Of a DNA stretch of 64,000 bases, positions 370 to 58,930 are shown in pieces; the first letter of the stretch is position 1; each line of letters opens with the position of its first letter. Both the position numbers and the translations under genes were made by a program. Below the pieces are notes generated by a model, which did not search any database, had not been told where the DNA came from, and worked only from the letters and a program-made list of their open reading frames with translations. Source of the stretch: a virus; IMG/VR virus record IMGVR_UViG_3300030103_003222, positions 1 to 64,000 of that record, one strand, 5' to 3'.

Positions 370-1017
370 ATGTCGGATGCCTTCGAGGTCGCGTGGACTT
401 TGCTCAAGTCTGATTTCATGGTCCGCAAAAATGTCATCGGCATGCAAGACGGGACGCAATATAACATGCCCCCGGCTATTGCTTCCATGGCTCAGCGACC
501 TCAGCGGCCTGAGATGATGACGCAGCAGATGGAAGTCCAGCAGCAACAACCGGGATTCTTTGGGAGGTTCAGACAACCAACTACTGAAATGCGAACTACG
601 CAAATCCCCACTGGTGCAAACGTAGTAGGGAGGCGTCCCGGCTACTTCGCAAATGTAAATGCTGGCCCAATTCAGACCAACTCACCACACCCAATGGGTG
701 AAATTGCTGCCAGCCCAGCACCGGGTGCTCAAGTGACCCGTATGCCCCGACCGGGACCTTTCCCCGGAGGTTATTCCTCAAATGCGTCGAGGATGCCGTC
801 CTTCAGCAACTATCAAGGACATTACGGCAGTGGGGTAAATCGTAGTGGGTTCGACGGCGATGGCCCCATAGGCACGCAGCCCGCCACCATCCTTGACCTG
901 CCATACCACGGAACCCGAGGAAACATCCACGACGAGGGTGGGCCGGAGAGAAGTTCAGGGCAAATTCAGCAGGACTATTACGGCGACCAATTTGGACCAA
1001 ATCGGTCTTTCAACTAA
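370..1017 (+). CDS. Tagged virion-cargo candidate, disordered
   Basis: This 215-residue protein of unknown function begins with MSDAFEVAWTLLKS, the shared tag of this cluster; the conserved tag also supports this start. The rest is rich in Pro, Gln, Gly, Met and Asn with few hydrophobic stretches, so it is probably disordered. No enzyme motif is visible. No ribosome binding site is obvious, and the gene may depend on the AT-rich tract upstream. It leads a run of five closely spaced genes for proteins that begin with, or begin near, related peptides. I infer that it is an internal virion protein; this is not shown directly. Confidence 0.75.
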   Translation: MSDAFEVAWTLLKSDFMVRKNVIGMQDGTQYNMPPAIASMAQRPQRPEMMTQQMEVQQQQPGFFGRFRQPTTEMRTTQIPTGANVVGRRPGYFANVNAGPIQTNSPHPMGEIAASPAPGAQVTRMPRPGPFPGGYSSNASRMPSFSNYQGHYGSGVNRSGFDGDGPIGTQPATILDLPYHGTRGNIHDEGGPERSSGQIQQDYYGDQFGPNRSFN

Positions 1018-1035
1018 GCAGAAAAGGCGAGGCAC

Positions 1036-1761
1036 GTGACCCCTTTTGACCGGGCGTGGTCCTTGCTCAAGATGGCTCGCTATAGAGCAGGGCCATACGA
1101 GATTTGGGACAGCAACGAAAAAGGGGGCTACGCTGATGGGGACGGCGAGTTCGACCATCTCCCTCAAACCTTCAGCCAGCCAAACTACGTGCGCAACGAG
1201 GAAACTGGTGAGTATGAGCAGCAAGGCGTGAGAGAGCACAGGCAGTATTACCCGATTGGGGCGAACTTTGGCTTCAAGTTCAAACCCGGTAAAGCCATGA
1301 TGACGCCCGAGCAGTTTCACGGACTCGTAGCCAGCCCGCAGCCTGAACACCGCACTGGTCAGCAAAAGGGCATTCTTGAGTCCATGAACCGAGGTGCACC
1401 AATTGCTGCGCCGATTCTAAGGGTCAAGCCCGATGGCAGCGGTTTCAGGGTCGAAGAACACGAAGGCCGCCACCGCATGCAAGCGCTTCGTGATGCGGGT
1501 TTGGGCGACGTGCCAGTCCCAATCGAAATACAGGGAGCGGGGTATCAATACCCCTACGACATGAACAACGAAAAGTTGAGAGAGATGTTGGCGGGTGCCA
1601 CCATTCAACCTCAGTATGGGGTCTACACACCCAGTGAAATGGCCCCCGGCACGGCCCTCTCTCCCGACGGCGACCGAGGACTCCACCCTCTCAACCAGCC
1701 CTTCACCATCTCCGACTTCGACCCATATTGGAACCGAGGTGCATATCATGACACCGTTTGA
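1036..1761 (+). CDS. Tagged protein with ParB/sulfiredoxin-like motif
   Basis: This 241-residue protein starts at GTG with MTPFDRAWSLLK, identical over 12 residues to the start of the next gene. The C-terminal half contains a region around residues 114-155 with the motif EGRHRMQAL followed by a short VPVPIEI strand. This resembles the G/E-x-RHR-x-x-A signature of the ParB/sulfiredoxin-like nuclease or NTPase fold. ParB-family domains bind DNA or nucleotides, but the exact activity here cannot be told. A GGCGAGG-like ribosome binding site precedes the start. The stop overlaps the next gene by 14 bases, which suggests coupled translation. Likely role: cargo delivered with the genome (inference). 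Confidence 0.75.
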   Translation: MTPFDRAWSLLKMARYRAGPYEIWDSNEKGGYADGDGEFDHLPQTFSQPNYVRNEETGEYEQQGVREHRQYYPIGANFGFKFKPGKAMMTPEQFHGLVASPQPEHRTGQQKGILESMNRGAPIAAPILRVKPDGSGFRVEEHEGRHRMQALRDAGLGDVPVPIEIQGAGYQYPYDMNNEKLREMLAGATIQPQYGVYTPSEMAPGTALSPDGDRGLHPLNQPFTISDFDPYWNRGAYHDTV

Positions 1762-2653
1762 CCGAGCGTGGTCCTTGCTCAAGTCTCGTGACTTTGGCTA
1801 TGAACCGGGCGATTCGCTTTACCGCCCACCCGAGGGACAGGGCAAACTACCGCGTTCGGTGCCCTACACCGAGTTTGGTCAGCAACAGACACTCAGTGAG
1901 TTCGACCCATCGTTTTCACCCACCTTCGTTCGCCCCCGGACTCGGGCTGAATTGTTCAGGGCATACAGAGAAGGCCTTACCGGCGGAGAAGAGGGTTACA
2001 GAATAGAGGAAGATGACGACGTTCAGCAGCCCGACAAACCAACGCACGTCAAGCGCATCCACGACCCTGAGCGTCATACCATGCACTACGTTTTGATGGG
2101 TGAGCGTGGCCCTCTTTCAAAATTGAGTGCAGGGGACATGTATGACCAAGAGGGTGGTCTTATCGACTTCAGCAGCGAAACTCACCCAGCACATATGCGA
2201 CAGGGGCACTACGGAACGCTCATCAATTCTCTTGTGCAAGCGGGCTATCCCGTTCACTCAATCAATCGAAACCACATGTCCCACCCCTTCCACACGAGGT
2301 TTCAACGCAATCTCCCAGCGGACATAAGACCCGGCATCACGGACGACAAACAGACCTCCTTTGAATGGGGACTCGACGTGGACGCTGATGACCCCACAAA
2401 TCGCCTTTTCTCATATGAGCGCAAGCCGATGAGGGAACTAACGCCGGAAAACTGGGGTGCGCTGCGCCCAATGAGGAGTGATTTTGTCCCACTCCGTGGG
2501 TTTGAAACCAAACGACCTGACATATCGAGGCCTGATGTGCGCTATTTCCAAGGAGTAGATGACCCTCACCAGCAGGTCCTTTTCAACTACCAAATCAACC
2601 CTCAAAATGAGTTTGTCCTCGCTCCTAACGATGCCTACAGGTATCAGAATTGA
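1748..2653 (+). CDS. Tagged protein with GNAT-like region
   Basis: This 301-residue protein begins with MTPFDRAWSLLKSRDFGYE. I chose ATG 1748 because GAGGTG lies just upstream and the tag then becomes N-terminal. Around residues 150-195 it has MRQGHYGTLINSL, then a hydrophobic turn and SINRNHMSHPFHTRFQ. This recalls the R-x-G-x-G/Y acetyl-CoA loop and following helix and strand of GNAT acetyltransferases, although the match is loose. A clear paralog lies at 57711, sharing MRxGHY, RNxMSHPFHT, LPxDI/M and PENWG motifs but lacking the N-terminal tag. The tag region is also similar at the DNA level to the preceding gene, consistent with duplication. Function is probably enzymatic but unproven. 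Confidence 0.75.
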   Translation: MTPFDRAWSLLKSRDFGYEPGDSLYRPPEGQGKLPRSVPYTEFGQQQTLSEFDPSFSPTFVRPRTRAELFRAYREGLTGGEEGYRIEEDDDVQQPDKPTHVKRIHDPERHTMHYVLMGERGPLSKLSAGDMYDQEGGLIDFSSETHPAHMRQGHYGTLINSLVQAGYPVHSINRNHMSHPFHTRFQRNLPADIRPGITDDKQTSFEWGLDVDADDPTNRLFSYERKPMRELTPENWGALRPMRSDFVPLRGFETKRPDISRPDVRYFQGVDDPHQQVLFNYQINPQNEFVLAPNDAYRYQN

Positions 2654-2667
2654 GGCGGTGCATTGAA

Positions 2668-3195
2668 ATGGTGTTGCCCTATACGCCTGACCATATGAGT
2701 TACGCTTTCGAGGCCGCTTGGACCCTGCTTAAGCAGGAGCAAGAGGACGAGGGCAATCCCGTGACTCACATGGGTCGACGTGGCCGCGCACGTGCTGAAA
2801 GGCGCGCAGAGCGAGCACGGATGCGCGGCGGCGGTAACTCGCCTTTGATGAACGAAACCGCAGCAGCGCGCCGAGAGGGGCGACGCACGCCGCTTGAAGG
2901 CTCGTTCATTATGGGGCCTCTGCCCCATATCAGGGGGCAGGCTCACCCTCTCGACGCGCTTCCGTTCAGAGAGGACCATCCCGATGTCAAAGTCCATGAC
3001 AGGACCATGGGTCGAATGCGCATGCCCACAACCGGACCTGTGACTGTGCCCGGTCAGGCTGAAAACATGAACACACCCATGAGCGATGAAGAGTTCGAGG
3101 GTCTGATGCGGCATCAGTCCCTGCTGAAACCCCAGCCAAATCCTTTCGAGACAAGGCGTATGCAAATCGGTGACTTCCCAGTCCGACAACGGTGA
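2668..3195 (+). CDS. Tagged, Arg-rich virion-cargo candidate
   Basis: This is a protein of about 175 residues. ATG 2668 follows GAGGCGGTG at a good distance, but ATG 2695 would put the tag MSYAFEAAWTLLKQ exactly at the N-terminus, so the start is uncertain. After the tag comes a strongly basic stretch of Arg and Ala (about residues 37-65) that could contact nucleic acid. The C-terminus contains PNPFETRR, one of several NPF motifs found in this and the next protein. No known domain is seen. It is the fourth gene of the tagged cluster and is followed after five bases by the next start. Confidence 0.7.
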   Translation: MVLPYTPDHMSYAFEAAWTLLKQEQEDEGNPVTHMGRRGRARAERRAERARMRGGGNSPLMNETAAARREGRRTPLEGSFIMGPLPHIRGQAHPLDALPFREDHPDVKVHDRTMGRMRMPTTGPVTVPGQAENMNTPMSDEEFEGLMRHQSLLKPQPNPFETRRMQIGDFPVRQR

Positions 3196-3200
3196 TACAC

Positions 3201-4163
3201 ATGACTGCCTTCGACACTGCATTCACCTTCCTTCGTGATTCCGTCATCGAGAAGAACGCCCCGTCCATCGAACAGATGCGCAATTTCGTTGCAGCAAATG
3301 AAAACCACCCCGACCCTGCTATTCGCGCAAAGGTCGAAGAGGTCTATCAGCACCTTACGTCCATGATGAGCGGTCGTGAATCTCTTCAGCCTCAAATGCC
3401 TGACGTGCACGCCATCGAGGCTGCGCGTCGTGAAGCGATGGCTCGCCGTTCGTTCGATGCTGCACCGCCCATGGCCCAAATGGTGGAGGGTTCGCCCGAA
3501 ACACCGGGTATGCGCATGACCCCCGGCGGTCAAATGGCCCCGATGCCTGTGGAACAAACGCCGCGCGTTGATGCAACGAGGCCAGCCAACCCGTTTAGGG
3601 GCGAGCGCGGGCGAATGAAAAAAGCAGAGCGTGTTCAGCGTCGCGAGCGCCGCACCCAGCCCGGTGAAAACAGCATGCTCACGCCGGAAGAGGCAGAAGG
3701 CGAGCAGATTCAACAAGAGCGAGAGAGCGGCATTCGCCCACTGCCGCAGTTCATGCGCCCCATGAGCCGCGCTCCTCCCCGCCCTGCAGAACCTGACACA
3801 AATGAGCCACCCAACCCATTCCCGATGAAGCGCAAGGGTTCACCCATGGACATCGCGTTTGCGATGCTTAAGTCGCAATACCGCTACCCGGACCCTCAAC
3901 CTCATGAGGAAACAATCGACCCAAATGAGATGCTGCGTCGCATCGAGGCAGACCGTGAAGCCCAGCGGATGAGAATGGAAGTCGGCATGCCCGACCCCCG
4001 CGTTAAGGACGTTTCTCACATTGACGAGATGATGCCCGAATACATGACGCCCGAAGAAAGGTTGGCGCTCGAAGAAATTCTGATGCGCAACCACGCAACT
4101 GGGCAGCCCTCCAACCCATTCAAGGGCGAACGTGGCAAAGCCTATGCCTCTGAAGGCTTGTGA
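3201..4163 (+). CDS. Tagged protein with internal tag copy and NPF repeats
   Basis: This 320-residue, charged, Met- and Pro-rich protein begins with MTAFDTAFTFLRDS, a divergent tag. A second tag-like segment, PMDIAFAMLKSQ, occurs about two thirds along (bases 3843-3878). Each half ends in a related motif: ANPFRGERGR near base 3586 and SNPFKGERGK near base 4110; a third, PNPFPMKRKG, lies just before the second tag. The protein therefore looks like an internal duplication or a fusion of two tagged units. No enzyme motif is visible and most of it is probably helical or disordered. ATG 3201 is preferred over the GTG at 3192 because it leaves the tag at the N-terminus. Confidence 0.7.
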   Translation: MTAFDTAFTFLRDSVIEKNAPSIEQMRNFVAANENHPDPAIRAKVEEVYQHLTSMMSGRESLQPQMPDVHAIEAARREAMARRSFDAAPPMAQMVEGSPETPGMRMTPGGQMAPMPVEQTPRVDATRPANPFRGERGRMKKAERVQRRERRTQPGENSMLTPEEAEGEQIQQERESGIRPLPQFMRPMSRAPPRPAEPDTNEPPNPFPMKRKGSPMDIAFAMLKSQYRYPDPQPHEETIDPNEMLRRIEADREAQRMRMEVGMPDPRVKDVSHIDEMMPEYMTPEERLALEEILMRNHATGQPSNPFKGERGKAYASEGL

Positions 4164-4172
4164 GGGCTGAAC

Positions 4173-5390
4173 TTGCCCGCTCCAGCAGTTGCCGTATTGG
4201 CAGGCGGTGGTGCCGCAGCAGGCGGTGGAGCCGCAGCAGGCGGAACGGCAGCGGCCGGTGGTGCTGCGTCAGGTAGTGCCGCTGGAGCAACAGCCGCTGG
4301 TGGATTCAGCCCCAAGAAGGTTCTCGGCGCGGCGGGCGCTGGTTTGTTGGCTGGCGGTGGCAACAGCACTTCGCGACAGGAAGGGCGCATGAACGACATG
4401 GCTCGCAGCGGCGCGGGCACGGGGCAGAAGTTCGGCGGAGGAGTGGGAGTGGCTAAAGCGCAGCAAACGCTGTTCGGCTACAGCCGACCTCACATCGAGC
4501 AGGCCATGTCGCCCGATTCAAACACGGTCATCATCGCATCAAAACCCGGTGGCCAAGATTTGCCTCTTGACGCGCAGTCGCAGCGGCATGACGAGATGCA
4601 CGGTGAACTGACTGAACTCGCTGCCGCCAATCCTGCACTCCGTATTCTTAGCGGCAAAGGCCGCAGCAAAGAGTGGGGCGACGAAAACTCGTTTGCTTTG
4701 ACCAACGTGCCCGACCATCTGATGCCGCTGATACGTCAAATGGCTGGTCGGTATAAGCAGGACAGCATTCTGCATTCCCCGGTCGGGACGTCGGATGCCT
4801 TCTTCACCAAACCCGGCGGTCAACGGACTGGTGCGCTGACAGACCCGGTTCTATCGAACGAAGAGCCTTCGGATTTCACGCAATTCGGTGGCGGCAACCT
4901 CGTTTTCGGTGGTTATCGCGACATGAAGCAGGCCAGTGAGGCGATGGATGCGGCGTGGCGTATGCTCATCAAAGAGCGCAAGTCTCCAGAAGCCATGCAG
5001 CACAAGCGTGAGTATGACAAGGCCTACGAGTCAACGCCTGAGCGCGTCAAATACCGCGTCGACCTCAACCGAGAGCGCCGACGTCGCGGGATTATGGGCA
5101 GCCGCGACCACATGGACGTCAGCCATACCGAAGGTGGCAAATTGACGCTTGAGCCGGAGCATTCCAACCGAGCGCGGCACTTCAAGGAGCAGGGAACGCT
5201 CCGCAGACTGGCAAAATCGGCCAAAGACGACATCGAACTGCTCCGAAACCTGCTGCAAGGCCCGATGGACGAGCAAGACCGCCTGATTGCGACCAAACTT
5301 GCTGAAAACATCAAGGAAAAGGACGACTCAGAGGCTGAAATGGCCGAAGAAGACACCTATCAGCACCTCGTGCGACCTTCGCATGATTAA
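4173..5390 (+). CDS. Gly/Ala-rich protein with tag and HNH-like segment
   Basis: This 405-residue protein starts at TTG behind GAGGGCTGA. Residues 1-65 are an Ala/Gly-rich low-complexity region that could insert in or disturb membranes. The middle (about 85-240) is globular but unrecognised. A tag-like helix, AMDAAWRMLIKER, lies at residues 257-269. Immediately after it come AYESTPERVKYR, LNRERRRRG, then DVSHTEGGKLTLEP and SNRARHF. This order resembles small HNH-type proteins of marine phages, in which a basic helix precedes a D-H motif and a final Asn-Arg. The C-terminus is an acidic/basic helical tail. The nuclease assignment is tentative. The gene ends just before the inverted repeat at 5394. 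Confidence 0.7.
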   Translation: MPAPAVAVLAGGGAAAGGGAAAGGTAAAGGAASGSAAGATAAGGFSPKKVLGAAGAGLLAGGGNSTSRQEGRMNDMARSGAGTGQKFGGGVGVAKAQQTLFGYSRPHIEQAMSPDSNTVIIASKPGGQDLPLDAQSQRHDEMHGELTELAAANPALRILSGKGRSKEWGDENSFALTNVPDHLMPLIRQMAGRYKQDSILHSPVGTSDAFFTKPGGQRTGALTDPVLSNEEPSDFTQFGGGNLVFGGYRDMKQASEAMDAAWRMLIKERKSPEAMQHKREYDKAYESTPERVKYRVDLNRERRRRGIMGSRDHMDVSHTEGGKLTLEPEHSNRARHFKEQGTLRRLAKSAKDDIELLRNLLQGPMDEQDRLIATKLAENIKEKDDSEAEMAEEDTYQHLVRPSHD

Positions 5391-5393
5391 ATC

Positions 5394-5454
5394 TGTAGTG
5401 TATTGAGTTCTATCATATTTAATAGTAATAAAAGATAGAACACAACACACTACA
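5394..5454. repeat. Long interrupted inverted repeat
   Basis: Bases 5394-5414 pair with 5434-5454. Nineteen of 21 positions are complementary, with mismatches at 5402/5446 and 5406/5442, around a 19-base A/T-rich loop. It lies in the only sizeable gap between two plus-strand modules. It may act as a terminator for the tagged cluster or as an operator, because a TATA-like sequence sits in the loop. Confidence 0.75.
5415..5424 (+). promoter_or_regulatory. TATA-like box in the hairpin loop
   Basis: ATATTTAATA is the best archaeal TATA-box match in this gap. It would start transcription near 5450, about 40 bases before the gene at 5492. Its location between the arms of an inverted repeat suggests that a dimeric regulator could occlude it. 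This is inferred from sequence only. Confidence 0.4.
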
Positions 5455-5491
5455 CACTTAACTTAACGCCTGCTCGGCCCGCGCAACCCTT

Positions 5492-6100
5492 ATGTGGACC
5501 TCAGATGTGGACAAGCCAGTGGTCAACATGGATGACGAGCAACACGACGCTGAAATCCGCCTCATGGGCCTCATTTTGGCTCAAAGTGCCCTCGTGGGCG
5601 TCGCCGTCGGCGTTTTTGACGCCGATGTGTGGCTGAAGAACGACACAACTTGGCTGAACGGCTTCACTTACGCGATGGGGGCGTTTTTCGTGCAGGGAAT
5701 CGCCTATTACGTGTTCAAAATGTTCTTTGAGCAGTCCATGAGGGAGCGAGCGCGTGCCAGTCAAATCGACAGGCAGCGCACCAACAAATACCGCTCCATG
5801 CAGCAATCTTTCGACTCTCGACGCTCTGAGATGGAAATCCGCATGCAGGAGGCCCAATTGGAGGCCGAATTGCGCTGGATGGAGGCAAATCCGGGCAAAA
5901 TGCCGCCTTCATGGGGCGTTCACGGTGGCTCACCCTCGATGGTGACGTCCTATGACCAGCAACGTCAAGACAACCTGCGCATTCCCACTCATCAAGCGCA
6001 AACCCAGCAACCGCTGTCGCTGGGAGCAGCAGAAGAGGGCGAAATCCCACTCAAAAAGGACGGCACGCCCGACAAGCGCTATCAGAAGAAGAATGAGTGA
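5492..6100 (+). CDS. Two-pass membrane protein with coiled-coil tail
   Basis: This 202-residue protein has two hydrophobic segments, about residues 24-43 and 56-78. They are followed by a long charged helical region (about 80-135) with heptad-like spacing and a Gln-rich tail. No signal peptide cleavage site or catalytic motif is evident. It is the first gene of a compact block with a small membrane protein and a membrane-anchored GTPase, which suggests that the three act together at the host membrane. No clear ribosome binding site precedes the ATG. Function is unknown. Confidence 0.75.
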   Translation: MWTSDVDKPVVNMDDEQHDAEIRLMGLILAQSALVGVAVGVFDADVWLKNDTTWLNGFTYAMGAFFVQGIAYYVFKMFFEQSMRERARASQIDRQRTNKYRSMQQSFDSRRSEMEIRMQEAQLEAELRWMEANPGKMPPSWGVHGGSPSMVTSYDQQRQDNLRIPTHQAQTQQPLSLGAAEEGEIPLKKDGTPDKRYQKKNE

Positions 6101-6105
6101 CAATC

Positions 6106-6360
6106 ATGGGTCGCATCTTCAAAACGGTGTCCGACAACGCAACTGAAGAGACGCTACGCGCCATTCACCTTGCGAACACGGTCGACACCACCTATGAGCG
6201 TGCTTGGGGTTGGGTGAAAACGCTTCTTGCCTCACTCATCACGGCGTTGACGGTTAGCGGTATCGAGTTCTTCAACCCGGAAGTCAGTTTCTATGAATCT
6301 TCAGTGGACTGGCTCGTGGAAAAACTCAGGGACTTCGCGAACTGGCTGAAATGGTGGTGA
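6106..6360 (+). CDS. Small single-pass membrane protein
   Basis: This 84-residue protein has one hydrophobic segment, about residues 38-56, and a Trp-rich amphipathic C-terminus. Just before the membrane segment it contains TYERAWGWVKTLL, which resembles the recurring tag but may simply be an amphipathic membrane helix. ATG 6106 is chosen because GAGTGA lies 5 bases upstream, over the stop of the preceding gene. The GTPase gene follows after 10 bases. A membrane partner of the GTPase is plausible, but its function is unknown. Confidence 0.7.
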   Translation: MGRIFKTVSDNATEETLRAIHLANTVDTTYERAWGWVKTLLASLITALTVSGIEFFNPEVSFYESSVDWLVEKLRDFANWLKWW

Positions 6361-6370
6361 AGGTGGCGTC

Positions 6371-7096
6371 ATGGTTGAGCCTGCAGGGACGGCACTGGTT
6401 GGCGCTGCCGTGTGGGGACAAGCCCTCTACCACTCGTGGCGACCAAGACGAGTCGGAATCTACGGAGCGCCCCTCGTCGGAAAAACAACCCTCGACCGAT
6501 ACATGACAACGCCCGGTGAGATGGAAGCCATCTCTGATGAGGACCGGACAACGCACGGCCGACTGCTCGGCGTTGCCGGCCCTTACCGTATGCCCAGTCC
6601 GACGCGCAAGCGCATCTCGTGGAATGGCGATAAGCGAGTTGTCTTTTCAGCCGACATTGGTGGACAAGAACGATTTTGGAATCTGTGGATTGAGGATGCA
6701 GTCACTCGGCGCGTCGAAGCCATCGTCTACATGTTTGATGAGCGGGCTTTCAAGGGCGGAGAAAGCGGACTACAGCAGGTTGGCGGCTTTCGTTTCCTCG
6801 TTGACCGTTTGATAACGCGCGACTACCGCTACCGCTCGCTCAGAGCACGGCTGAAGGGTAAGCGGTATCATCCCAAACTTGTCATGCTCGTGGCCAACAA
6901 AGCCGACCGCTTCTTTGACGACACGGCATCGAAGTTGTGGCATGACGGGCGTATTGGTGAACACAAAGTCTTCGACCCTTTCAGAGACGACCTCATTCGT
7001 TTGCAGAAAGCCGGCATCCCGACCAAGCGCTCGTTCATGGCAACGCGCATCGGGTGGAACGTTGAGAAGACCATGCTCGACGTGCTGACCTCATAA
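6371..7096 (+). CDS. Membrane-anchored SR-beta/Arf-like GTPase
   Basis: This 241-residue protein has the motifs of a small GTPase: P-loop GAPLVGKT at residues 32-39, DIGGQE at 95-100 (the D-x-G-G-Q form of Arf and signal-recognition-particle receptor beta), and NKAD at 176-179. A hydrophobic stretch at about residues 5-22 precedes the P-loop, as in SR-beta, which is anchored by an N-terminal membrane helix. GTP binding is therefore well supported. The partner and role are unknown; remodelling or trafficking at the host membrane is possible. An AGGTGGCG ribosome binding site precedes ATG 6371. It follows two membrane-protein genes. A small GTPase is unusual in a head-tail virus. Confidence 0.85.
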   Translation: MVEPAGTALVGAAVWGQALYHSWRPRRVGIYGAPLVGKTTLDRYMTTPGEMEAISDEDRTTHGRLLGVAGPYRMPSPTRKRISWNGDKRVVFSADIGGQERFWNLWIEDAVTRRVEAIVYMFDERAFKGGESGLQQVGGFRFLVDRLITRDYRYRSLRARLKGKRYHPKLVMLVANKADRFFDDTASKLWHDGRIGEHKVFDPFRDDLIRLQKAGIPTKRSFMATRIGWNVEKTMLDVLTS

Positions 7097-7107
7097 GTGA
7101 CCTCAAT

Positions 7108-7116
7108 CCTTTTATC
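7108..7116 (+). promoter_or_regulatory. Weak TATA-like box before the AbrB-type gene
   Basis: CCTTTTATC is AT-rich relative to its surroundings and lies about 26 bases before ATG 7138, a spacing that would give a nearly leaderless transcript. A GGTGG motif at 7126-7130 could instead act as a ribosome binding site, so the promoter is uncertain. Confidence 0.25.
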
Positions 7117-7137
7117 AAGAGCGACGGTGGACAAAAC

Positions 7138-7335
7138 ATGGCGGCAAAGCGAAAGACGACCTCACTCACTCCAACCAGTGAGCAGTCGCGCACGCTTCGC
7201 ACGACCATCCCGATTTGGATTGTCGACCATTTCGGATTGGAGGCAGGCGACCGCGTCGAGTGGTCGTTTGAGGTGAAAGACGGAAATATCATCGTCGTCA
7301 TGTCTCCATCAGGGGGCGAAGACATTGATGCTTAG
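7138..7335 (+). CDS. AbrB/SpoVT-type swapped-hairpin DNA-binding protein
   Basis: This 65-residue protein has the pattern of an AbrB-like swapped-hairpin domain: LRTTIPIWIVDHFGLEAGD, then a strand WSFEVKDGNIIVVM. Such proteins are dimeric DNA-binding regulators and are common in archaea. The single domain fills the protein, as expected for the short members. It could regulate one or more of the promoters here, for example the one inside the inverted repeat at 5394-5454, but that is inference. Its stop overlaps the start of the next gene. Confidence 0.75.
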   Translation: MAAKRKTTSLTPTSEQSRTLRTTIPIWIVDHFGLEAGDRVEWSFEVKDGNIIVVMSPSGGEDIDA

Positions 7336-8251: not shown

Positions 8252-8252
8252 C

Positions 8253-9400: not shown

Positions 9401-10085
9401 GGGGGAGGCGGAGCGTGTCGTCAAACGTTCTTGTCCCCTGTGTCAACATGCCTCTCGTGATGAGTTGGAAAACGCATTACTGCTCGGTGAAATCTCGTCT
9501 CAGCAGTTAGACCGTGACATGGGTTGGCGGCTCAACACAACCGACCGTCACTTCCGCAACCACATGGGTCAGTATCACATGGCGGCAAACCCTCAGTGCA
9601 AAGTCTGCGCACATCCGCAGCGAGCCGATTTTGAGCAGCGTTATTTTGCAGATGGCGCTGAGTCTGAAGCCATCGCCACTGAACTCGGTATTCGCGAAGA
9701 CAGCGTCTACCACCATATGAAGCACCATTTTCAGCCATTGGTCCAACGGTCTGCTGTGGCTGAAGTCACCGTATTGGTCGGACGTGAAGTAGATGTCCTC
9801 AGAAGCAACGTCGAACGCCTCAACCACAAATTGTCTGAACTGCTCGATGAGGGAAGCGTTCACGAAGATGGATTCGTTCGTGATGCAGTGTCACTGCATA
9901 AAGAAGTCAGAGAATCCGTGAAAGACCTCGTTAAGATGCAGGAGACGTGGGGCGCGACCACTGAAAACAACGAGATTCACAACACCATCAACATCCTGAA
10001 GGTGGAATTGGGCAAAGAAAGCCCGGAAACGTGGGCGCGGCTGCGCGAAAAACTCGTCAACGACATGGAGGGATTCAGCGAATGA
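9399..10085 (+). CDS. Duplicated Zn-finger/HTH protein, small terminase candidate
   Basis: This 228-residue protein contains two tandem copies of one unit. The first runs from CPLCQH through LDRDMGWRLNTTDRHFRNHM and the second from CKVCAHPQR through ELGIREDSVYHHMKHH. Each couples a C-x2-C-x-H zinc site to a helix-turn-helix that ends in H-x3-H. A coiled-coil region follows (about residues 130-200). DNA-binding HTH plus coiled-coil oligomerisation is the usual plan of small terminase subunits, and the large terminase gene follows 5 kb downstream. I therefore propose TerS, but a transcription regulator is an alternative. I prefer ATG 9399; the frame extends upstream but overlaps the reverse-strand gene. 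Confidence 0.6.
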   Translation: MGEAERVVKRSCPLCQHASRDELENALLLGEISSQQLDRDMGWRLNTTDRHFRNHMGQYHMAANPQCKVCAHPQRADFEQRYFADGAESEAIATELGIREDSVYHHMKHHFQPLVQRSAVAEVTVLVGREVDVLRSNVERLNHKLSELLDEGSVHEDGFVRDAVSLHKEVRESVKDLVKMQETWGATTENNEIHNTINILKVELGKESPETWARLREKLVNDMEGFSE

Positions 10086-10489
10086 GCGTTTCCGTTCCTG
10101 TGCCTGACTTGCTTCAAATGATGCACGGTGGCTACGCACTTGTCTTGAATGATGGCGTGGCAAAAGAGCACGAACTACCCAATCTCATTGACTACGCGCG
10201 TTGCATCGTGCAGCGGTTCGAGCACTACGGGTCATTGTCTGTCGCTCCCGAAGACCTCTTCGTCAGGTTGTGTGATGTATTCCAAGTGCTCACCGAATGC
10301 GATGAGCCGACGCTGTTTTTTGAAGCGAGAGATAGCGCAGTTGGTTATATCGAAGAACTCGAAATCGTCATGCGCAACATGTCACGAGCCTTCACTTCCA
10401 GCGAGCGAATCAGCCGCCACTACCACTCGGTGGCCATGACATTCCACAATTCACTGCGTCATTTGCTCGGAGGTGAGATGTGTGACTGA
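10082..10489 (+). CDS. Conserved-looking protein of unknown function
   Basis: This 135-residue, mostly helical, mildly acidic protein has no motif I recognise. ATG 10082 overlaps the stop of the Zn-finger/HTH gene (ATGA) and fits a coupled start. It is followed by an overlapping gene at 10482. Position between a possible small terminase and other virion candidates suggests a packaging or assembly role, but nothing in the sequence proves it. Confidence 0.65.
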   Translation: MSVSVPVPDLLQMMHGGYALVLNDGVAKEHELPNLIDYARCIVQRFEHYGSLSVAPEDLFVRLCDVFQVLTECDEPTLFFEARDSAVGYIEELEIVMRNMSRAFTSSERISRHYHSVAMTFHNSLRHLLGGEMCD

Positions 10490-11660
10490 AGGTATGATGG
10501 GTCGTGGGTCTGACACCCGCATCTACTCCCCTCGCTCAGAGTCCTCGCACATGTTCCGTGCAAACTACGAGGATGAGAGCACACCTACCGGGATTGACGA
10601 CGCTGCGGACAAAGAACGTCGCATGGACAAGCGGCAGAAGAAGAGGGAAGCGGAGGAGAAAGAAGACCGCAAAATGCGTCATATCAAGATTCGACGCCAT
10701 CATATGGCGCACGGTCGTGGCGAGATTCCCGAGATTGAAGCAGAAGAGGACGACTCGTTCAAACCACGAGCCTCTGTTTCTGAGCCGACGATTCCTTCTG
10801 GTGCTGGTGGCTTCCTAACCAGTCTCGCAACGCAAGCCAAAGGCCCCGGTGCCGCTGGTGGTGAGATGATTCAGATGGGCAAACCAATGGACCACGCTTG
10901 GTCTGAATTGCTAAAGTCGAAGCGCTCCCGTGAAAAGCGTCGCAAAACTGAGCAGCGAGCGAAGTGGCGCCCGTCGACCGGGCAGTTCAAGCGCCCTCCC
11001 GGTGGTTTTCGTGGCAAGTCCTACACCTCACAACGGGCCAAGGGTCTGTCGCGCAATCTCCCCATGGGGAAGAAGACTGGGCTGATGCGCCCCCACCTCG
11101 CGGTTGAGATGGCTCACCGTGGTATCGCCAGCAAGCAACCAATGTCCAAGGACCCACAAGCCTATGGGCAATACCGCGCCTATCAGGAGGCGCAGAAGAT
11201 TCAGGGTGGTGTGCGCGCACCGAAGGTCCCTCTCCCCTTCGGGCGCCGTAGTCCTCTCATGCGGTTGCCAAAGCCTCGGCTTCACCCCGTGCGCGCCCCA
11301 CCCATCATGCCACCGCGTCTACGACGCCCGCGTCTCAACCGACCAAAGATGCCCGGTATGGTCACGATGAGTGAGGACGAGCCGGAGTCCGGTGACATCT
11401 TGAAGGCACGTCGTCGTTATTCTGAAATCGCTGAACTGCGTATGGCTGTTCAGCAATTGAAGGACTTGCTGCGTGACGAAAAGGACCGCAAACGCAAGGG
11501 CATGGGCACCAAGGACACGGCCGGTGGAGCCAGCGACAAGCCCAACGACCCCGGTGGCCCGTCCCGTGAGACGAATCACAATCAAGGCCCGACCGAGAGT
11601 CAAGACTCGGAGGCCATCTACGGCTACAGCCCCAGTGCGAAACTGACAAATCGGAGTTGA
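10482..11660 (+). CDS. Very basic protein with internal tag-like helix
   Basis: This 392-residue protein starts at GTG 10482, five bases after GGAGGTGA. The N-terminal third is highly charged (Lys/Arg/Glu). At residues 136-146 lies MDHAWSELLKS, a copy of the cluster tag, followed at once by a long Lys/Arg/Pro/Gly-rich region (about 147-300) typical of nucleic-acid-binding, disordered proteins. A coiled coil near 310-345 follows, introduced by GDILKARR, and the C-terminus is polar. The composition suggests DNA condensation or internal head protein function, which is inference. No enzyme motif is seen. Confidence 0.7.
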   Translation: MTEGMMGRGSDTRIYSPRSESSHMFRANYEDESTPTGIDDAADKERRMDKRQKKREAEEKEDRKMRHIKIRRHHMAHGRGEIPEIEAEEDDSFKPRASVSEPTIPSGAGGFLTSLATQAKGPGAAGGEMIQMGKPMDHAWSELLKSKRSREKRRKTEQRAKWRPSTGQFKRPPGGFRGKSYTSQRAKGLSRNLPMGKKTGLMRPHLAVEMAHRGIASKQPMSKDPQAYGQYRAYQEAQKIQGGVRAPKVPLPFGRRSPLMRLPKPRLHPVRAPPIMPPRLRRPRLNRPKMPGMVTMSEDEPESGDILKARRRYSEIAELRMAVQQLKDLLRDEKDRKRKGMGTKDTAGGASDKPNDPGGPSRETNHNQGPTESQDSEAIYGYSPSAKLTNRS

Positions 11661-11664
11661 GGTC

Positions 11665-14124
11665 ATGGCGCTCCGGCTTTTCTACGGCGTCTTCCGCAAA
11701 GGTGACGGCAACGTCGGCGTCGACCCATCGACTGGGGCGCAATACCTGATGTCTTACCCTCCTCCTGAGAACTATGAGGAGGACCCTGAAATTCCCGACG
11801 CTCCTGCTTTTGCACACACGGGCGCGATGGAACACCGCCACGAAGCGGGCCATCCTGAACACGTTCCCGGCATGGGTCGCCGTATTGGTGGTGAGTTCAA
11901 GCAGGGTCCGTATCACGAGAACGTCTACCACGGTGAAGACGACCACTACTACCATCACGGCATTGACGGTATCATCCATCAAATCGGCAAGGCGATGGAA
12001 GAGGCAGGCCTCATCACAGAAGGCGAAGGCGGCATCGTTGTCACAGAAGCAAACAAAGAGAAACTGCTTCCGAGGGACGTCGTGCAACAAGCGATTGACG
12101 AGTTCAACAGAAAGCACTCTGACCCGAGGCAACACCTCCCGAACGTCGACAGCGTTGAGTGGCGCAAGATGCACTCAGCCGTGCCTGACAAGGGTGGGGC
12201 AAAAAATTGGGCTATGTATGACGCGTCCAACATGCCAACGAGAAGACCCGATGGGCGTCTGACGACGATGTGGACGAACAACAAGTCACAGGACAACCTG
12301 TTGGGTCACTTCCCTGAGTCCTACGCTGTGCCCATCTTCAGGGAACTTGGTGAAATTCTGAGAAGCGACTTTGGTGGCGCACTCTCAGGACTCGCCAGCA
12401 AAGCCGAGTGGGCCAAGCGACCGTGGGTGTCGTCTGACGTGCTGCACCCCTACGCCCACCGCACGACGGGTATGGGTGGCGACAAACTGGAGGGCGACAC
12501 CATCGGTTCAGCCAGCATCTCTGACCGTGTTTTGGGGCAGGACCGGTTTAAGGGAATCCCCAATCTAAACAGCGACAAGCAAGTGGTTCACTCCTACGGG
12601 CTGCACGCTCACCTTCCCAAGTTCTTCTATCACGACCTGATGAGCGAAGCACAGCGTCAACGCGGTATTGATAGCGAGACGAAGCAAGAGGCCGCACAGC
12701 GCGCTCAAGTCTTCCAAAAACTCCGCAACCACATGCAGATGGCCGCTCAACGTGGTTCATTCCCTGACGGGCAGGTGCAGATTGGTGACAACATGTTCGA
12801 CATCAGTGTCGCCATGACAGACCCCACGCTGCGTGACCACATTGCGGACGAACTGTCGCGCACCATCTCAGGGCACTTCTTCGTTGGTCGTGTTCAGGCT
12901 GGAGGTAAAACCAACCGTAGCCCCGGTGGTCGTGCCTTTGACAAACTGCTTGAGCAGTTCGGTGGCGATGCTGATGAAGAGGGCAGTCGTCCAGCCCATC
13001 GTGACATGCAAACGCATTTGATTGCTGGTCGTAACATCGCTGGCTCAGGCACGTCAGGTCAGGGGACGCATGCAGCAGCACGTCGATTCTACGCCAAGGT
13101 CTTGCAGTCGGGTAAGGGAGAAGGCGGCGCTCCTTCCAAGATGGCCGAGTTTGAAGCCGACGAAGAAGCACTTCAGCAACTCGGCATTAGCGCTGAAGGT
13201 AGCCGTGCCGATTACCGCCGGCAATTGGCCTCCGCCTTTGGTTCGGCCGTCACCCATGCTCACGGTTTTGAAGACCTGAGCACGCTCCCTCGTTATATCC
13301 CAACAGGGGCACATGGTGCACACAGTGGCGGTATCGCAGGTTATCCGACCGAGCAGATGGAACTTCCACCCCACGTTGCTGACCGCCACGCGGAGCGTGA
13401 AATCGAAGAACCCTTGGAAGATGCACCGCCCGGTCGACAGGACCACACCACCACGGAAGGTAGGCCGCGCCCTGTCGCGCCTTCTGCTCCTGAAGGAGAC
13501 AAGCGAGTGCGTCGTGAAGAGCCTCGCGAAGAGCGAGGGCCGATTCAGGTGGTCCCGGCGGACCAAATGAGGCTGGACCAATTCACGGGCGCACCGGCAC
13601 CTGTCGCTGCACCTACGCCAATGCCACCTCAAGACGCCTACACGCGCCTACCCCCTGAAGTCGTGGCGGCGCGACAATTCATTGGTCAAGCCTCACCCCA
13701 AGATTTGCGGCAAGTCATCAGTCAAGGTAACGTCCCAATCCGCCCCGGCACCGGCCCACTGACGCCGCAGGAACAGCAGTTCCAGCAGACCATGGGCGAC
13801 CCTGCACAGCGCCTCCTGACCCAATACCTTCGCAGCCTCGACCAATCACTGCCTGAAGCAGAGCGTTTGCTCAAAGCCATGGAGAGCATGCAAATGGACG
13901 ACGCCAAGCAGGACAACCGCGTGATGAAAATGTCGCGCGACCCAGTGCATCTTGCAGACGAATACGCGGTGCAGACGTTCGCCAAGAGCGTTGGGCTGAC
14001 TTCGCTTGACGTTCGCGCCATTGCTCACACGCATGGTGACTGGCAGCGCATCAGTGACAAACTCGGTGTTGGGCTAAATGTCATCAAGGCCGTGAAGGTC
14101 ACGGTAACGGGGGGACTGTCGTGA
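11665..14124 (+). CDS. Large protein of unknown function
   Basis: This 819-residue protein begins MALRLFYGVFRKGDGNVGV. A His-rich stretch occurs near residues 85-100 and a polar, Pro/Arg/Glu-rich linker near 565-640. The C-terminus has a small helical segment, IAHTHGDWQRISDKLGV, that resembles a helix-turn-helix or UBA-like fold. The bulk looks globular, but I cannot place it in a family. It lies between the basic tagged protein and a Gly-rich protein, upstream of the terminase. A virion or injection role is possible. A motif AERLLKAMES occurs near the C-terminus. Its stop overlaps the next start (GTGA). Confidence 0.7.
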   Translation: MALRLFYGVFRKGDGNVGVDPSTGAQYLMSYPPPENYEEDPEIPDAPAFAHTGAMEHRHEAGHPEHVPGMGRRIGGEFKQGPYHENVYHGEDDHYYHHGIDGIIHQIGKAMEEAGLITEGEGGIVVTEANKEKLLPRDVVQQAIDEFNRKHSDPRQHLPNVDSVEWRKMHSAVPDKGGAKNWAMYDASNMPTRRPDGRLTTMWTNNKSQDNLLGHFPESYAVPIFRELGEILRSDFGGALSGLASKAEWAKRPWVSSDVLHPYAHRTTGMGGDKLEGDTIGSASISDRVLGQDRFKGIPNLNSDKQVVHSYGLHAHLPKFFYHDLMSEAQRQRGIDSETKQEAAQRAQVFQKLRNHMQMAAQRGSFPDGQVQIGDNMFDISVAMTDPTLRDHIADELSRTISGHFFVGRVQAGGKTNRSPGGRAFDKLLEQFGGDADEEGSRPAHRDMQTHLIAGRNIAGSGTSGQGTHAAARRFYAKVLQSGKGEGGAPSKMAEFEADEEALQQLGISAEGSRADYRRQLASAFGSAVTHAHGFEDLSTLPRYIPTGAHGAHSGGIAGYPTEQMELPPHVADRHAEREIEEPLEDAPPGRQDHTTTEGRPRPVAPSAPEGDKRVRREEPREERGPIQVVPADQMRLDQFTGAPAPVAAPTPMPPQDAYTRLPPEVVAARQFIGQASPQDLRQVISQGNVPIRPGTGPLTPQEQQFQQTMGDPAQRLLTQYLRSLDQSLPEAERLLKAMESMQMDDAKQDNRVMKMSRDPVHLADEYAVQTFAKSVGLTSLDVRAIAHTHGDWQRISDKLGVGLNVIKAVKVTVTGGLS

Positions 14125-15113
14125 GTCGAGTCCTCGTTCGCAAGGCGGACATCGTCTACGACGTGATGAGCGGTAGACCTCAGTTGCAGGTTGGTGTCGG
14201 CGCCCGTCGTGACAACGACGGTAGGCGGATGATGCCGACCTTTGGGGGCGAAGGAAACCTTGTTGCTGTTCAAAACGCATTACAGGACAGAGAGGGACGA
14301 ATCGCAAACATTGAGTCGCAAATCCCGGTAGACCCGCGAACTGGATTCCGCTCTTCGCAGGATGAAAAGGAGTTCCAGCATGCCGTGGGGCAACTGGGCA
14401 GTGGCTTTGCTTCCGACCAAGAGCGAATCGCTTTTGGTGCACGTCATGAGGATAAAGGTGCAAAGTTTGACGCAGCCCGCCGTGGCGCTGGCATCGGTGG
14501 ACGAATTGGGCAGGGGCTTGGTGCGTTAGGCACGAGCCTCGTTGGTGTGATGAGTGGACTGAGCGCGCTTGAAGGCGGACAAGGACCACTCGCCGCAGGT
14601 CTGACCGGTTACACGGCTGCTCAGCAATTGGGCGGTATGACGCCCTATCTGACTGAAGCAGGGATGCGGGTAGGTGCGGGGTTGGGAGCACGCCGCAAGG
14701 TGCCCGAAAACACGTCCTCTACCGCAGCGGTGGCTGAGCCAACGATGAACAACGTGAACACCACTGGGTCATCAGTCAATCCCAACCTGATTACCTCCTA
14801 TGGGGGCGCATCTGCCGAAGGACCAACTGGCGTTGGTGTGCAGGGCACCCGTGCATCCCGTCGACCGCGACGGGCGACAATGGCAGAGCCGACGCCACCG
14901 ATGACAGCGACCGACGCTGGAGAAGTGATTGGCTCTCATCTTGACAACAACACAGCAAAACCACAAGGGCTTGAACCACCCAACCCAAGAACAGCGGCTG
15001 AAGCGGCTGTTCCCCAATCGTCGCTGACCGCTCCCGAGGCTGCGGGAGACTTGAGTGCATATTTCAACAAAGTGAGAGACGAAGGCGCAAGCAGTGTTCC
15101 GGGTGGTTACTGA
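14121..15113 (+). CDS. Gly-rich, possibly membrane-active virion protein
   Basis: This 330-residue protein starts at GTG 14121, overlapping the previous stop. Residues 120-180 form a Gly/Ala/Leu-rich hydrophobic region that could be membrane-active, as in pilot or penetration proteins. The C-terminal half is polar, rich in Thr, Pro, Asn and Ala, and probably disordered. No catalytic motif is visible. The terminase gene begins at its stop codon. Function unknown. Confidence 0.65.
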   Translation: MSRVLVRKADIVYDVMSGRPQLQVGVGARRDNDGRRMMPTFGGEGNLVAVQNALQDREGRIANIESQIPVDPRTGFRSSQDEKEFQHAVGQLGSGFASDQERIAFGARHEDKGAKFDAARRGAGIGGRIGQGLGALGTSLVGVMSGLSALEGGQGPLAAGLTGYTAAQQLGGMTPYLTEAGMRVGAGLGARRKVPENTSSTAAVAEPTMNNVNTTGSSVNPNLITSYGGASAEGPTGVGVQGTRASRRPRRATMAEPTPPMTATDAGEVIGSHLDNNTAKPQGLEPPNPRTAAEAAVPQSSLTAPEAAGDLSAYFNKVRDEGASSVPGGY

Positions 15114-16588
15114 TGGAGAACAAAGGCGAGATGCGAGAACTCGTCATTGAGATGGACCGCAAGATGTCGGAGAAGTCCTTCCCATACTTCTTCGAGACGG
15201 TCCTCGGTTTTGACTTCGCTAACCACCACAAACTGTGGCAGAAGGGCATGGAAGAGAGCCGGTATTATTGCGTGAAAGCGAGCCGCGACCACGGTAAGTC
15301 TGTGTTCTTCATGTCCTACGCACTGTGGATTGCCGCCTTCAACCCCGGCACTCACGTCATGATTTTCTCGCACTCGCTTGAGCAGACGTTGGAGCACATG
15401 CGCTTCATTCGCAACAACATCGAGCACTCTCCCTGTCTCAAGTCGCTGATTCCATCGGGTAAGCCATGGCGCAAGACGTATTTCGAGTTCACCAACGGCA
15501 GCCGTATGATGGCCAAGTCGGTGGGCGGCGGAACGCGTGGTTTCCACCCTGACGTTGTCGTGTGTGACGACATCTTGTGGGGCACAACGGGGTCTGAACT
15601 GCAGCGTGCTGCGGACTGGTTCTATGGTGTTCTGCTACCTGTGCTGCACCACTCCGGTCGCATGATGATGGTCGGCACGCCTTTCTCATATAACGACCTC
15701 TACGCACAATTGGAGAAGACTGAGACGTTCCGAGTCGAAACCTACCCCGCCATCAACAAGGAAGGTGATGCGCTGTGGCCCGAGCGATGGGACCTCGAAT
15801 CGCTTGACCAACGCCGCATGACCATGCCTGCTATTCAGTTCACTCGTGAATACCTGTGCGAGCCGATTCACGACGTGGCCAGCATGTTCCCCATGGAAAT
15901 GCTTGAGAAAGCGCGTGACCACGAACTCGTGCTGCTTGATAGGGCCGACATGGAATATGACGAGAATGGTGATTCTGTTGGCGTTTATGGTCATCACTTC
16001 ATCGGCTGGGACACGGCTATCGCTTCTGACAAGAACGCCGACTACACGGCCATGACCGTCATGCGCACGTTGCCCGATGAAGACGTGAAGCAGATTGTCG
16101 GTGTGGTGCACGAGAAGGGGATGTCCTCGATGGCGCAGAAGCGTCAAATCATCATCCTCAACAACAAGTTCCAACCCGACCTCATCGAACTTGAAGGCAA
16201 CAACTTCCAGCGCATGTTCGCCATGGAACTGCAGGACATCCGCCAAGACATCCCCATCCGCACGTTCATCACAACCCGCACTCGCAAGGAGAGTCTGTTC
16301 ATGTCGCTGCTGCTCGCCTTTGAGCAGGGGCAAATCAAACTGCCATACGGCGATGACCGCTCGCGTCGTTTCACGCACAAAGTGGAGGAGGAACTCAACC
16401 GCTTCGGTATGCAGAAAAACGGCCGATTGGAGAGCGTCGGCACTCACGATGACCTTGCCATGTCGTTAGCACTCGCTAATTGGGGAACCAAAGAGTTCCG
16501 TGGCTCGGTTGTGCTTCTCGATGATGTCATGCCCGGTTTCGATGACTGGTTGACGGGCCGCAGAAAACCAAAATGGGCGGTCCCATGA
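15113..16588 (+). CDS. terL: Terminase large subunit
   Basis: This is the DNA-packaging motor and nuclease. The 491 residues show an ATPase domain with a Walker A-like SRDHGKS at 57-63 and Walker B VVVCDD at 148-153. A nuclease domain follows with D300 in GWDTAIASDKNADYTAM, acidic residues in IELEGNNF (about 358-365) and HDD at 445-447, as in RNase H-like terminase nucleases. Length is normal for the family. Walker A is of the variant form in which the classical GxxxxGK is not complete, common in TerL. ATG 15113 overlaps the previous stop. The portal gene follows 2.8 kb downstream, after an insertion of small Lys/Cys-rich genes and a LAGLIDADG gene. Confidence 0.95.
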   Translation: MENKGEMRELVIEMDRKMSEKSFPYFFETVLGFDFANHHKLWQKGMEESRYYCVKASRDHGKSVFFMSYALWIAAFNPGTHVMIFSHSLEQTLEHMRFIRNNIEHSPCLKSLIPSGKPWRKTYFEFTNGSRMMAKSVGGGTRGFHPDVVVCDDILWGTTGSELQRAADWFYGVLLPVLHHSGRMMMVGTPFSYNDLYAQLEKTETFRVETYPAINKEGDALWPERWDLESLDQRRMTMPAIQFTREYLCEPIHDVASMFPMEMLEKARDHELVLLDRADMEYDENGDSVGVYGHHFIGWDTAIASDKNADYTAMTVMRTLPDEDVKQIVGVVHEKGMSSMAQKRQIIILNNKFQPDLIELEGNNFQRMFAMELQDIRQDIPIRTFITTRTRKESLFMSLLLAFEQGQIKLPYGDDRSRRFTHKVEEELNRFGMQKNGRLESVGTHDDLAMSLALANWGTKEFRGSVVLLDDVMPGFDDWLTGRRKPKWAVP

Positions 16589-16620
16589 CGTTATATCCGT
16601 TTGATGCTTGGGGGTTTTGA

Positions 16621-17454
16621 ATGAAGGAAACGAAGGTCGGAAAGAAGCCGCACGGCGTCGTGCTCGTGGTGTCACTTGGCAAACCGGGTGACAAGAAGCC
16701 CGAGCGTGCTGCTGACCCGGACAAGCAGAAGAAGATGGACCGACTCAGTAGCGAGGTGGCGAGAAGTAGTGGTCGACCTTTACCAAACTGGATGGCTCGC
16801 AGGGCTGCTGGGCGGCAGGTAGCGAATCAAGTTCGCTATCAGCAAGGTAACCTCAACGACCCCAACGCTGAACCTGAAGGGAAGTTCCCCGAACTCGCTG
16901 ACAATGTCGCTTCTGGTCACAGCGGGCGACGAGGCAGCAAAGCGCAAGCCGAGGATTTTCAGTCGGCTGTGCCTTTGATGCAGCGTGTTCAAGAACAAGA
17001 GGATGCGAAAAAGCCCCAGACGGAGGAGGAAGACCTCTATGCCAACATCTTCGCTGACCAAGACATGACGCGACGAGCATTCGACAACCTCGAAGCGTTC
17101 AATGCTTTGCGGAAAGGCGAGCCTGTCGATTTCTGCACCTGCTGCTCCCCTTCAGACCTTGCTTGGGCCATCGTGAAGGCGAAGAAGAAGTCCAAACCGT
17201 TCCACGGCTATAACCCGAATCGCCATCACAAGAAGGGTGGGTTGAACGCTAAGGGTCGCGCAAAGGCCAAGCGTGAGACTGGTGCGAATCTCAAGCCACC
17301 TGTCACCACCAAACCGAGCAAACTCAAACCCGGTTCCAAGAAGGCCAAGCGTCGTAAATCGTTCTGCGCTCGCATGGGTGGCATGAAGGGGCCGACGTCC
17401 AAGAAGGGCAAACTCACGCCGAAGGGCGCCGCGCTAAGGAGGTGGAACTGTTGA
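16621..17454 (+). CDS. Lys-rich phage protein with C-terminal RKSFCARM motif
   Basis: This 277-residue protein is largely disordered over residues 1-170. A tag-like segment SDLAWAIVKAKKKS at 178-191 sits after a Cys cluster, CTCC. The C-terminal region has GGLNAKGRAKAKRETGANL, KPGSKKAKRRKSFCARMGG and a terminal RRWNC. I recognise this order from a small protein common in marine T4-like and other phages (a domain-of-unknown-function family, DUF6321 as I recall). Its function is not known. It overlaps the next gene by 4 bases. The shared tag suggests it is carried with, or processed in, the head (inference). Confidence 0.8.
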   Translation: MKETKVGKKPHGVVLVVSLGKPGDKKPERAADPDKQKKMDRLSSEVARSSGRPLPNWMARRAAGRQVANQVRYQQGNLNDPNAEPEGKFPELADNVASGHSGRRGSKAQAEDFQSAVPLMQRVQEQEDAKKPQTEEEDLYANIFADQDMTRRAFDNLEAFNALRKGEPVDFCTCCSPSDLAWAIVKAKKKSKPFHGYNPNRHHKKGGLNAKGRAKAKRETGANLKPPVTTKPSKLKPGSKKAKRRKSFCARMGGMKGPTSKKGKLTPKGAALRRWNC

Positions 17455-17645
17455 CTGACTGTGACTGTGGACATTGTGTTGGAATGGATGCTGCGTGGAG
17501 CCTTCTGCAAAAGAAACTCTGCCCCGAAGGCAAGGCAGCGGCCAAGAGGAAGTTCGATGTCTACCCGTCGGCCTATGCGAACGGCTGGGCCGTTCAGTAT
17601 TGTCGTGGTAAGTTCCGCAAGAAGAAGGGGGGTAAGAAGAAATGA
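17451..17645 (+). CDS. Small tagged protein with YPSAYANGWA motif
   Basis: This 64-residue protein starts at TTG 17451, six bases after GGAGGTG and overlapping the previous stop (TTGA). A Cys-rich N-terminus, DCDCGHC, is followed by MDAAWSLLQKK (residues 12-22, the shared tag) and then by KRKFDVYPSAYANGWAVQYC, a motif I know from small proteins of marine phages. The C-terminus is poly-Lys-like. No function is established. It is part of a four-gene run of very small, basic, Cys-containing proteins. Confidence 0.75.
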   Translation: MTDCDCGHCVGMDAAWSLLQKKLCPEGKAAAKRKFDVYPSAYANGWAVQYCRGKFRKKKGGKKK

Positions 17646-29875: not shown

Positions 29876-29911
29876 GCAATCACCAAACACACAAAATGAG
29901 GAGTGAATAAT

Positions 29912-58928: not shown

Positions 58929-58930
58929 CC

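Follow-up and report, generated by a model that had tools for sequence, protein, structure and literature searches.

In bacteriophage T4 the capsid-targeting sequences (CTS) are propeptides of 10-20 residues that the prohead protease takes off (PMC5694885). The internal proteins of the T-even phages have been described as diverse defence proteins that have the CTS alone in common (PMC3012670). In phage P1 a reporter enters the head when it carries the N-terminal 30 residues of DarB, no common consensus having been found among the N-termini of the Dar proteins (PMC9024508), and the prohead protease removes an N-terminal piece of DarA (PMC12810830). The present work concerns a short peptide tag, built around A-W-x-L-L-K, which marks otherwise different proteins in the viral record IMGVR_UViG_3300030103_003222 and its relatives; the window analysed comprises bases 1-64,000 of this 82,761-base IMG/VR record. 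We regard the tag as, very probably, a cleavable and modular magrovirus signal for head targeting and maturation, analogous to the T4 CTS and not homologous with it.

The Magrovirales are viruses of the Poseidoniales in which head and replication genes are transcribed in opposite directions (PMC12999244), and magroviruses are reportedly among the most abundant viruses of the marine plankton (PMC10160649). The genome described here is magrovirus-like, that of a virus of Marine Group II archaea, as assigned by gene layout and content. It encodes a family-B DNA polymerase with a replisome of its own, and a terminase, portal, S78 protease and capsid module on the opposite strand; at 82.8 kb, against about 90-110 kb for the order, the record may be incomplete.

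Occurrence and specificity of the tag

Five consecutive genes (370-4163) start with M-x-[PA]-F-[DE]-x-A-W-x-[LVI]-L-K, and five further copies are internal to proteins. Every copy in the window lies on the plus strand, in the head-gene region. In the following list, as elsewhere, an arrow marks the proposed point of cleavage.

370-1017, plus strand: N-tagged protein 1, Gln/Pro-rich; tag MSDAFEVAWTLLK↓S at 370-408
1036-1761, plus strand: N-tagged protein 2, with a ParB-like motif and a GTG start; tag MTPFDRAWSLLK↓M at 1036-1071
1748-2653, plus strand: N-tagged protein 3, with a tentative GNAT-like core; tag MTPFDRAWSLLK↓S at 1748-1783
2695-3195, plus strand: N-tagged protein 4, basic and disordered-looking; tag MSYAFEAAWTLLK↓Q at 2695-2733
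3201-4163, plus strand: N-tagged protein 5; divergent tag MTAFDTAFTFLR at 3201-3236
3840-3872, plus strand: second, internal tag of protein 5, SPMDIAFAMLK↓S
4173-5390, plus strand: internally tagged protein, with EAMDAAWRMLIK at 4938-4973 immediately upstream of an HNH-like domain (phrog_6437)
10473-11660, plus strand: cassette-bearing carrier protein; single tag KPMDHAWSELLK↓S at 10881-10916
16621-17454, plus strand: Lys-rich DUF6321 protein; SPSDLAWAIVK↓A at 17146-17178, immediately ahead of the DUF6321 domain
17442-17645, plus strand: small Lys-rich protein (tentatively DUF5872-like; phrog_27331); VGMDAAWSLLQK at 17478-17513

All the copies named in the original prediction, which had pointed to recurring A-W-x-L-L-K-type peptides, are present in the translations of the window. 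This includes the tag in a gene said to begin at 2668, although the start itself has to be moved: the ATG at 2695 is the better one because it begins the tag. A Cys-rich protein with repeated zinc-ribbon-like units (21783-22646) has an N-terminal EAMDLLNKAMRLLQKA helix which resembles a diverged tag.

The main search set consisted of the window and 80 terminase-related viral loci (70-87% identity), genes in unannotated genomes being called in this analysis. The strict tag pattern gave 157 matches on the coding strand, none on the opposite strand and one in reversed coding-strand peptides; we conclude from this that the tag is real and specific. An iterated profile, at a score of at least 14, found 404 matches as against none on the minus strand, none in reversed and five in shuffled peptides, and the profile search of related viral genomes that had been suggested with the original prediction thus yields matches far above its controls. 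This profile drifted onto the portal protein (NIVDDAFLILIK) and a coiled-coil protein (ESMDSDLQSLKA), which are ordinary homologous families and were excluded; the strict pattern was used instead.

A degenerate DNA pattern for the internal form, EPMDxAWxLLK, matched 32 stretches in IMG/VR, and 257 Gb of prokaryote genomes contained no match. With a pattern for the N-terminal form the IMG/VR total was at least 119 stretches, as many as 11 matches falling within 11 kb, and the same prokaryote set gave three matches, which is about the chance expectation. Relatives of window proteins are encoded by 95 of the 116 newly fetched stretches, and most of the rest are short. That the tag is a product of chance, or a generic amphipathic helix, is next to impossible: helices of the LLK type are common, and even the replication strand has a mild excess of LLK[ASG], but the strict-pattern counts and the empty search with the internal form refute the idea.

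Six more near-complete genomes (97-116 kb) have one to nine N-tagged genes each, plus internal copies, and the tag matches listed for them fall on the head-gene strand save for one doubtful minus-strand match (genome G003). The proposal of a tag spread over many unrelated proteins proved to cover a far larger field than was first noticed, with 398 N-tagged open reading frames (ORFs) in 192 sequence clusters. The tag was removed before clustering (BLAST E 1e-3, bit score over 40), and remote homology would merge some of these clusters. We found no paper on such a tag in magroviruses in the literature.

Anatomy of the tag

The consensus of 103 non-redundant N-terminal tags, with the last position left free, is M-x(0-2)-[PA]-F-[DE]-x-A-W-x-[LVI]-L-K. 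The residue before the proposed cut (P1) is K in 97 of them and R in one; several of the exceptions are the "IEKG/LLEKG" tags of DUF6321 proteins, in which K comes one residue later. These statistics derive from loci not gathered by the K-fixing N-terminal pattern, except for some that were gathered by the internal pattern. The residue after the cut (P1') is A, S or G in 48%, as against 15-19% at P2'-P6', and a larger set with one member per cluster gave 46% as against 9-16% at the next positions. A second alignment, for whose gathering W and K had been set in advance, is left out of account for these two residues. Among 52 proteins with little else in common, A7, W8, L11 and K12 are each at least 90% conserved. 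Such a sharp preference at P1, joined to a single small residue at P1', has the look of a protease site; discrimination between K and R is not to be expected of a generic helix.

Like the CTS of the T4 internal proteins and Alt, the magrovirus tag is a short N-terminal peptide on otherwise different, unrelated proteins (192 clusters, consensus MxPFDxAWxxLK). Prohead proteases of the T4 type cut after Glu; as P1 is K in 97 of 103 tags, the tag falls outside the T4 CTS family. It further differs from the CTS in its sequence, in its proposed K↓A/S/G cut, in belonging to an archaeal virus, in the breadth of its carriers (about 190 clusters) and in occurring internally and in several copies as well, and its packaging is one that we infer from sequence. 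Unlike the P1 Dar proteins, the tagged proteins have an explicit consensus.

Modular organization and proposed cargo

Relatives of the carrier protein (10473-11660), for which no match was found in annotated phages, bear one to four tags with differing domains between them. Certain cassettes (MSEAEAL..., FKTPNHEWYDQIMG..., DVTDEYDYYNYY...) recur in different viruses, and an ASIEEL-type cassette was found in two different proteins (L048:4648 and L050:11461), one a carrier protein and the other a DUF6321 protein; in both it ends at a tag. In relatives the HNH-like domain seen at 4173-5390 occurs N-tagged (L168), internally tagged (L167, L028, L037) and without a tag (L164). C-terminal tags are also seen (e.g., L165, L181), and some single polypeptides hold 2-5 copies.

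This exchange of tag-flanked cassettes between viruses and carriers would also be expected if the tag were a DNA-level recombination joint for cassette shuffling, its peptide being incidental, and the tags at 1036 and 1748 are indeed almost identical as DNA. However, among the N-terminal tags within each of two other genomes the third codon positions are only 36-37% identical at shared residues, and the flanks on both sides are at background; this indicates selection on the peptide and not on the DNA, and an explanation by nucleotide repeats was rejected on the same grounds. The Met-anchored N-terminal position and the K↓A/S/G preference are likewise features of protein. We consider a recombination joint highly improbable.

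The recognised families among tagged proteins include DUF7831, YspA-type SLOG, HD phosphohydrolase, GNAT acetyltransferases, zinc ribbons, ParB-like, HNH-like, GP88 and DUF6321. Most tagged proteins have no family match; in a second set of 85, six families were matched by one member each. The ParB-like motif of protein 2, EGRHRMQAL, was recognised by eye and recurs in "EGGHRMEALRQMGHGDTPVPV" proteins of relatives, and an orthologue of this protein with the tag is present in L190/L195. For protein 3 the structure model is poor (predicted local distance difference test, pLDDT, 40) and the Foldseek list consists mostly of acetyltransferases; as E is 0.06 or more, the GNAT-like identity is only a hint. 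A direct peptide scan of viral contigs gave no relative of this protein, and an untagged paralogue of it follows the giant tail gene of the window (57711-58928). A PHROG "internal virion protein" match on 4173-5390 was set aside, lying mostly in a low-complexity Ala/Gly stretch. There was one PADLOC match, to Cas12u2.

Polyvalent proteins are multidomain proteins that phages and plasmids use in their conflicts with host cells (PMC5512222). The tagged proteins resemble them in the ParB-like candidate of the window and the several enzyme domains of relatives, the comparison extending to cassettes and enzyme domains only. They differ in that each magrovirus domain travels with a common peptide tag.

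Corresponding sites in the head proteins

The plus strand of the window encodes the head genes, followed by the tail region:

15113-16588, plus strand: terminase large subunit, the query for collecting relatives
19357-21102, plus strand: portal protein (Pfam Phage_portal)
22653-28454, plus strand: head-region protein of 1,933 amino acids with a DNA-ligase-like domain
28499-29875, plus strand: prohead serine protease (Peptidase_S78; PF04586, E=1.4e-9) with a probable scaffold C-terminus
29903-31090, plus strand: major capsid protein

The protease gene adjoins the capsid gene, as in the HK97-type layout. The [L/I]LK↓[ASG] end of the tag recurs as conserved islands in four proteins of the virus, namely the capsid protein, the protease, the carrier and the large head protein, so that a candidate cleavage motif common to tagged proteins and capsid protein, of the kind that a T4-type CTS would have, is seen at the level of sequence. 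In the capsid protein it is GSELLK↓AD (K37), just before the N-arm and invariant in close relatives, with SDILK↓AD at the same site in one distant relative. The N-terminal LTLLK↓G of the protease (K15) is kept in all 61 of 61 relatives, and the C-terminal SGDILK↓A of the carrier (K codon at about 11403-11405) in 54 of 55, its L and K columns being conserved at 0.93-1.0 and the flanks at 0.50. The large protein has two candidate protease sites: RNDLLK↓S near its N-terminus (K18), kept in 42 of 44, and DPQALLK↓S (K1437), before the DNA-ligase-like domain, in which K is invariant in relatives. The domain itself, resembling ATP-dependent DNA ligases and situated at residues 1515-1611 after the conserved ALLK↓S, is possibly that of a virion-packaged ligase.

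These four proteins average 1.0-1.9 LLK[ASG] sites per protein, as against 0.04 in the portal (106 homologues) and 0.06 in the terminase (65). In the head region of the window's genome there are 16 sites where shuffling predicts 3.5, with tail and replication proteins at expectation. Over seven genomes the head/tail strand has 179 sites as against 72.5 expected (2.5-fold). Because this enrichment across genomes is mild, it is the conservation within families that carries weight. For the stricter pattern [ST][DE][ILMV][LIM]K[ASG] there are 13 matches on the head/tail strand and one elsewhere, and variants in which R or E replaces K gave none in the same genome comparison.

In HK97 gp4 is a prohead protease of the S78 kind, and we know of no tagged cargo in that phage. 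The HK97 capsid protein has K103-S104 in its sequence and the mature PDB chains begin at residue 104; with the magrovirus S78 protease, this K103↓S104 cut parallels the proposed K↓A/S/G. Unlike HK97, in which a scaffold domain of 103 residues is removed, the magrovirus capsid protein would lose a propeptide of 37 residues.

The nearest named relatives of the capsid protein and the protease are found in the haloarchaeal Druskaviridae (HVTV-1, HCTV-1). The HVTV-1 capsid protein is 32% identical and has K-A-D of the proposed capsid site in register (GGMSK↓ADNLL). The two groups are also alike in having very large proteins between portal and protease (zeta toxin). The AW-LLK tag was not found in these haloviruses. 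In the protease and capsid protein of HVTV-1 (L231 13934-17236), [VM]SK↓[AG] sequences stand at telling places, which suggests a similar preference for K followed by a small residue, Ser being at P2. The PDB holds no sequence relative of these capsid proteins.

The occurrence of the LLK↓[ASG] half in the capsid protein, the protease and the large protein, all without the AW half, would suit a tag that is a protease site or polyprotein linker only, with packaging driven by other parts of each protein, and the multi-tag carriers do resemble polyproteins. Nevertheless, unrelated proteins keep the upstream [PA][FM][DE]xAW half just as well as the LLK half; the other sites do without it, and small single-domain proteins gain nothing from a processing site unless the loss of 12 residues helps. 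This possibility we judge unlikely.

Proposed role of the tag

The reading as a T4-like signal for head loading, which was that of the original prediction, fits best on account of the unrelated carriers, the position at N-termini and cassette joints, the restriction to the head strand, the K↓[ASG] end shared with capsid protein and protease, and the S78 protease itself. The T4 model has no counterpart to the internal and C-terminal copies of the tag, including those in multi-copy polypeptides. In the proposed mechanism the amphipathic helix [PA]-[FMIL]-[DE]-x-A-W would bring a protein into the procapsid by docking, with the scaffold or the protease as the probable partner, and the S78 prohead protease would cut the adjoining [LIV]-L-K↓[A/S/G], the same enzyme trimming the capsid protein at GSELLK↓AD. 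Any N-tagged protein, or any cassette inserted behind an internal tag of a carrier, could be loaded into the head in this way; cutting at every tag would free the domains of the carrier, and the cargo would enter the next host cell along with the DNA. The sequences show the tag itself, its specificity, modular use and strand restriction, and its agreement with conserved K↓[ASG] sites of head proteins; the docking partner, packaging, cleavage and delivery are what we infer.

Instead of leading to the head, the tag might recruit proteins to a cytoplasmic partner, for instance a chaperone like the thermosome that the virus encodes. This has some precedent: going by the title of a paper cited in PMC10052503 (ref. 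29), the N-terminus of T4 gp23 directs proteins to GroEL. The thermosome is encoded in seven of the seven genomes examined; so is the protease, and their co-occurrence therefore does not discriminate. A chaperone signal predicts neither K with a small P1' nor a match to the sites in capsid protein and protease, and we hold it to be very unlikely.

Several points weigh against a cleavable head-targeting signal. Internal and C-terminal copies are superfluous for a pure N-terminal propeptide, and P1' is not strictly small, with E, N, Q and M also found. The LLK of the capsid protein says little within close relatives, since this protein is conserved throughout, and that of the protease could be a structural strand. 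On the replication strand of the seven genomes there are 77 LLK[ASG] sites as against 50.3 expected (1.5-fold, z 3.9); with genome-wide enrichment only moderate, single sites are weak evidence. The structure model of the capsid protein is unusable (pLDDT 33), and no virion proteome or N-terminal sequence was found for any magrovirus.

A bolder form of the proposal, which in our estimation might hold or fail with about equal chance, is that one universal cleavable peptide code loads a large and fast-exchanging set of effectors, that multi-tag polyproteins are cut inside the capsid, and that the virions are programmable protein-delivery particles.

Other features of the genome

On its minus strand the remainder of the record (L002) has genes for a TCP-1/thermosome chaperonin, for the family-B DNA polymerase and for an AAA clamp-loader-like protein. 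The chaperonin gene lies at L002 1450-2961 (about 64450-65961 of the genome). Within the head-gene region are a gene for a small DNA-binding protein of the MazE/AbrB type (7138-7335) and one with small-GTPase-like motifs recognised by eye (GAPLVGKTT, DIGGQE, NKAD; 6371-7096), which has 46 relatives and no Pfam match. The tail region includes a single ORF of 5,613 amino acids (40873-57714) and, among the tail genes, a metabolic gene (58925-59776; Pfam HMGL-like, E 1e-20) with relatives in 30 other fetched loci.

Significance

Magroviruses are known from metagenomes alone and most of their proteins are uncharacterised. If the proposed role is true, the tag would provide a sequence-only route to listing the proteins that are carried in the virion and injected, some 190 clusters, most of them without a Pfam match. 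To our knowledge no explicit head-targeting consensus has been given before for archaeal viruses; this would be the first, together with a defined cleavage specificity for the prohead protease. It would also offer a ready peptide for putting foreign proteins into archaeal viral heads, and the manner in which magroviruses disarm the Marine Group II archaea would become testable.

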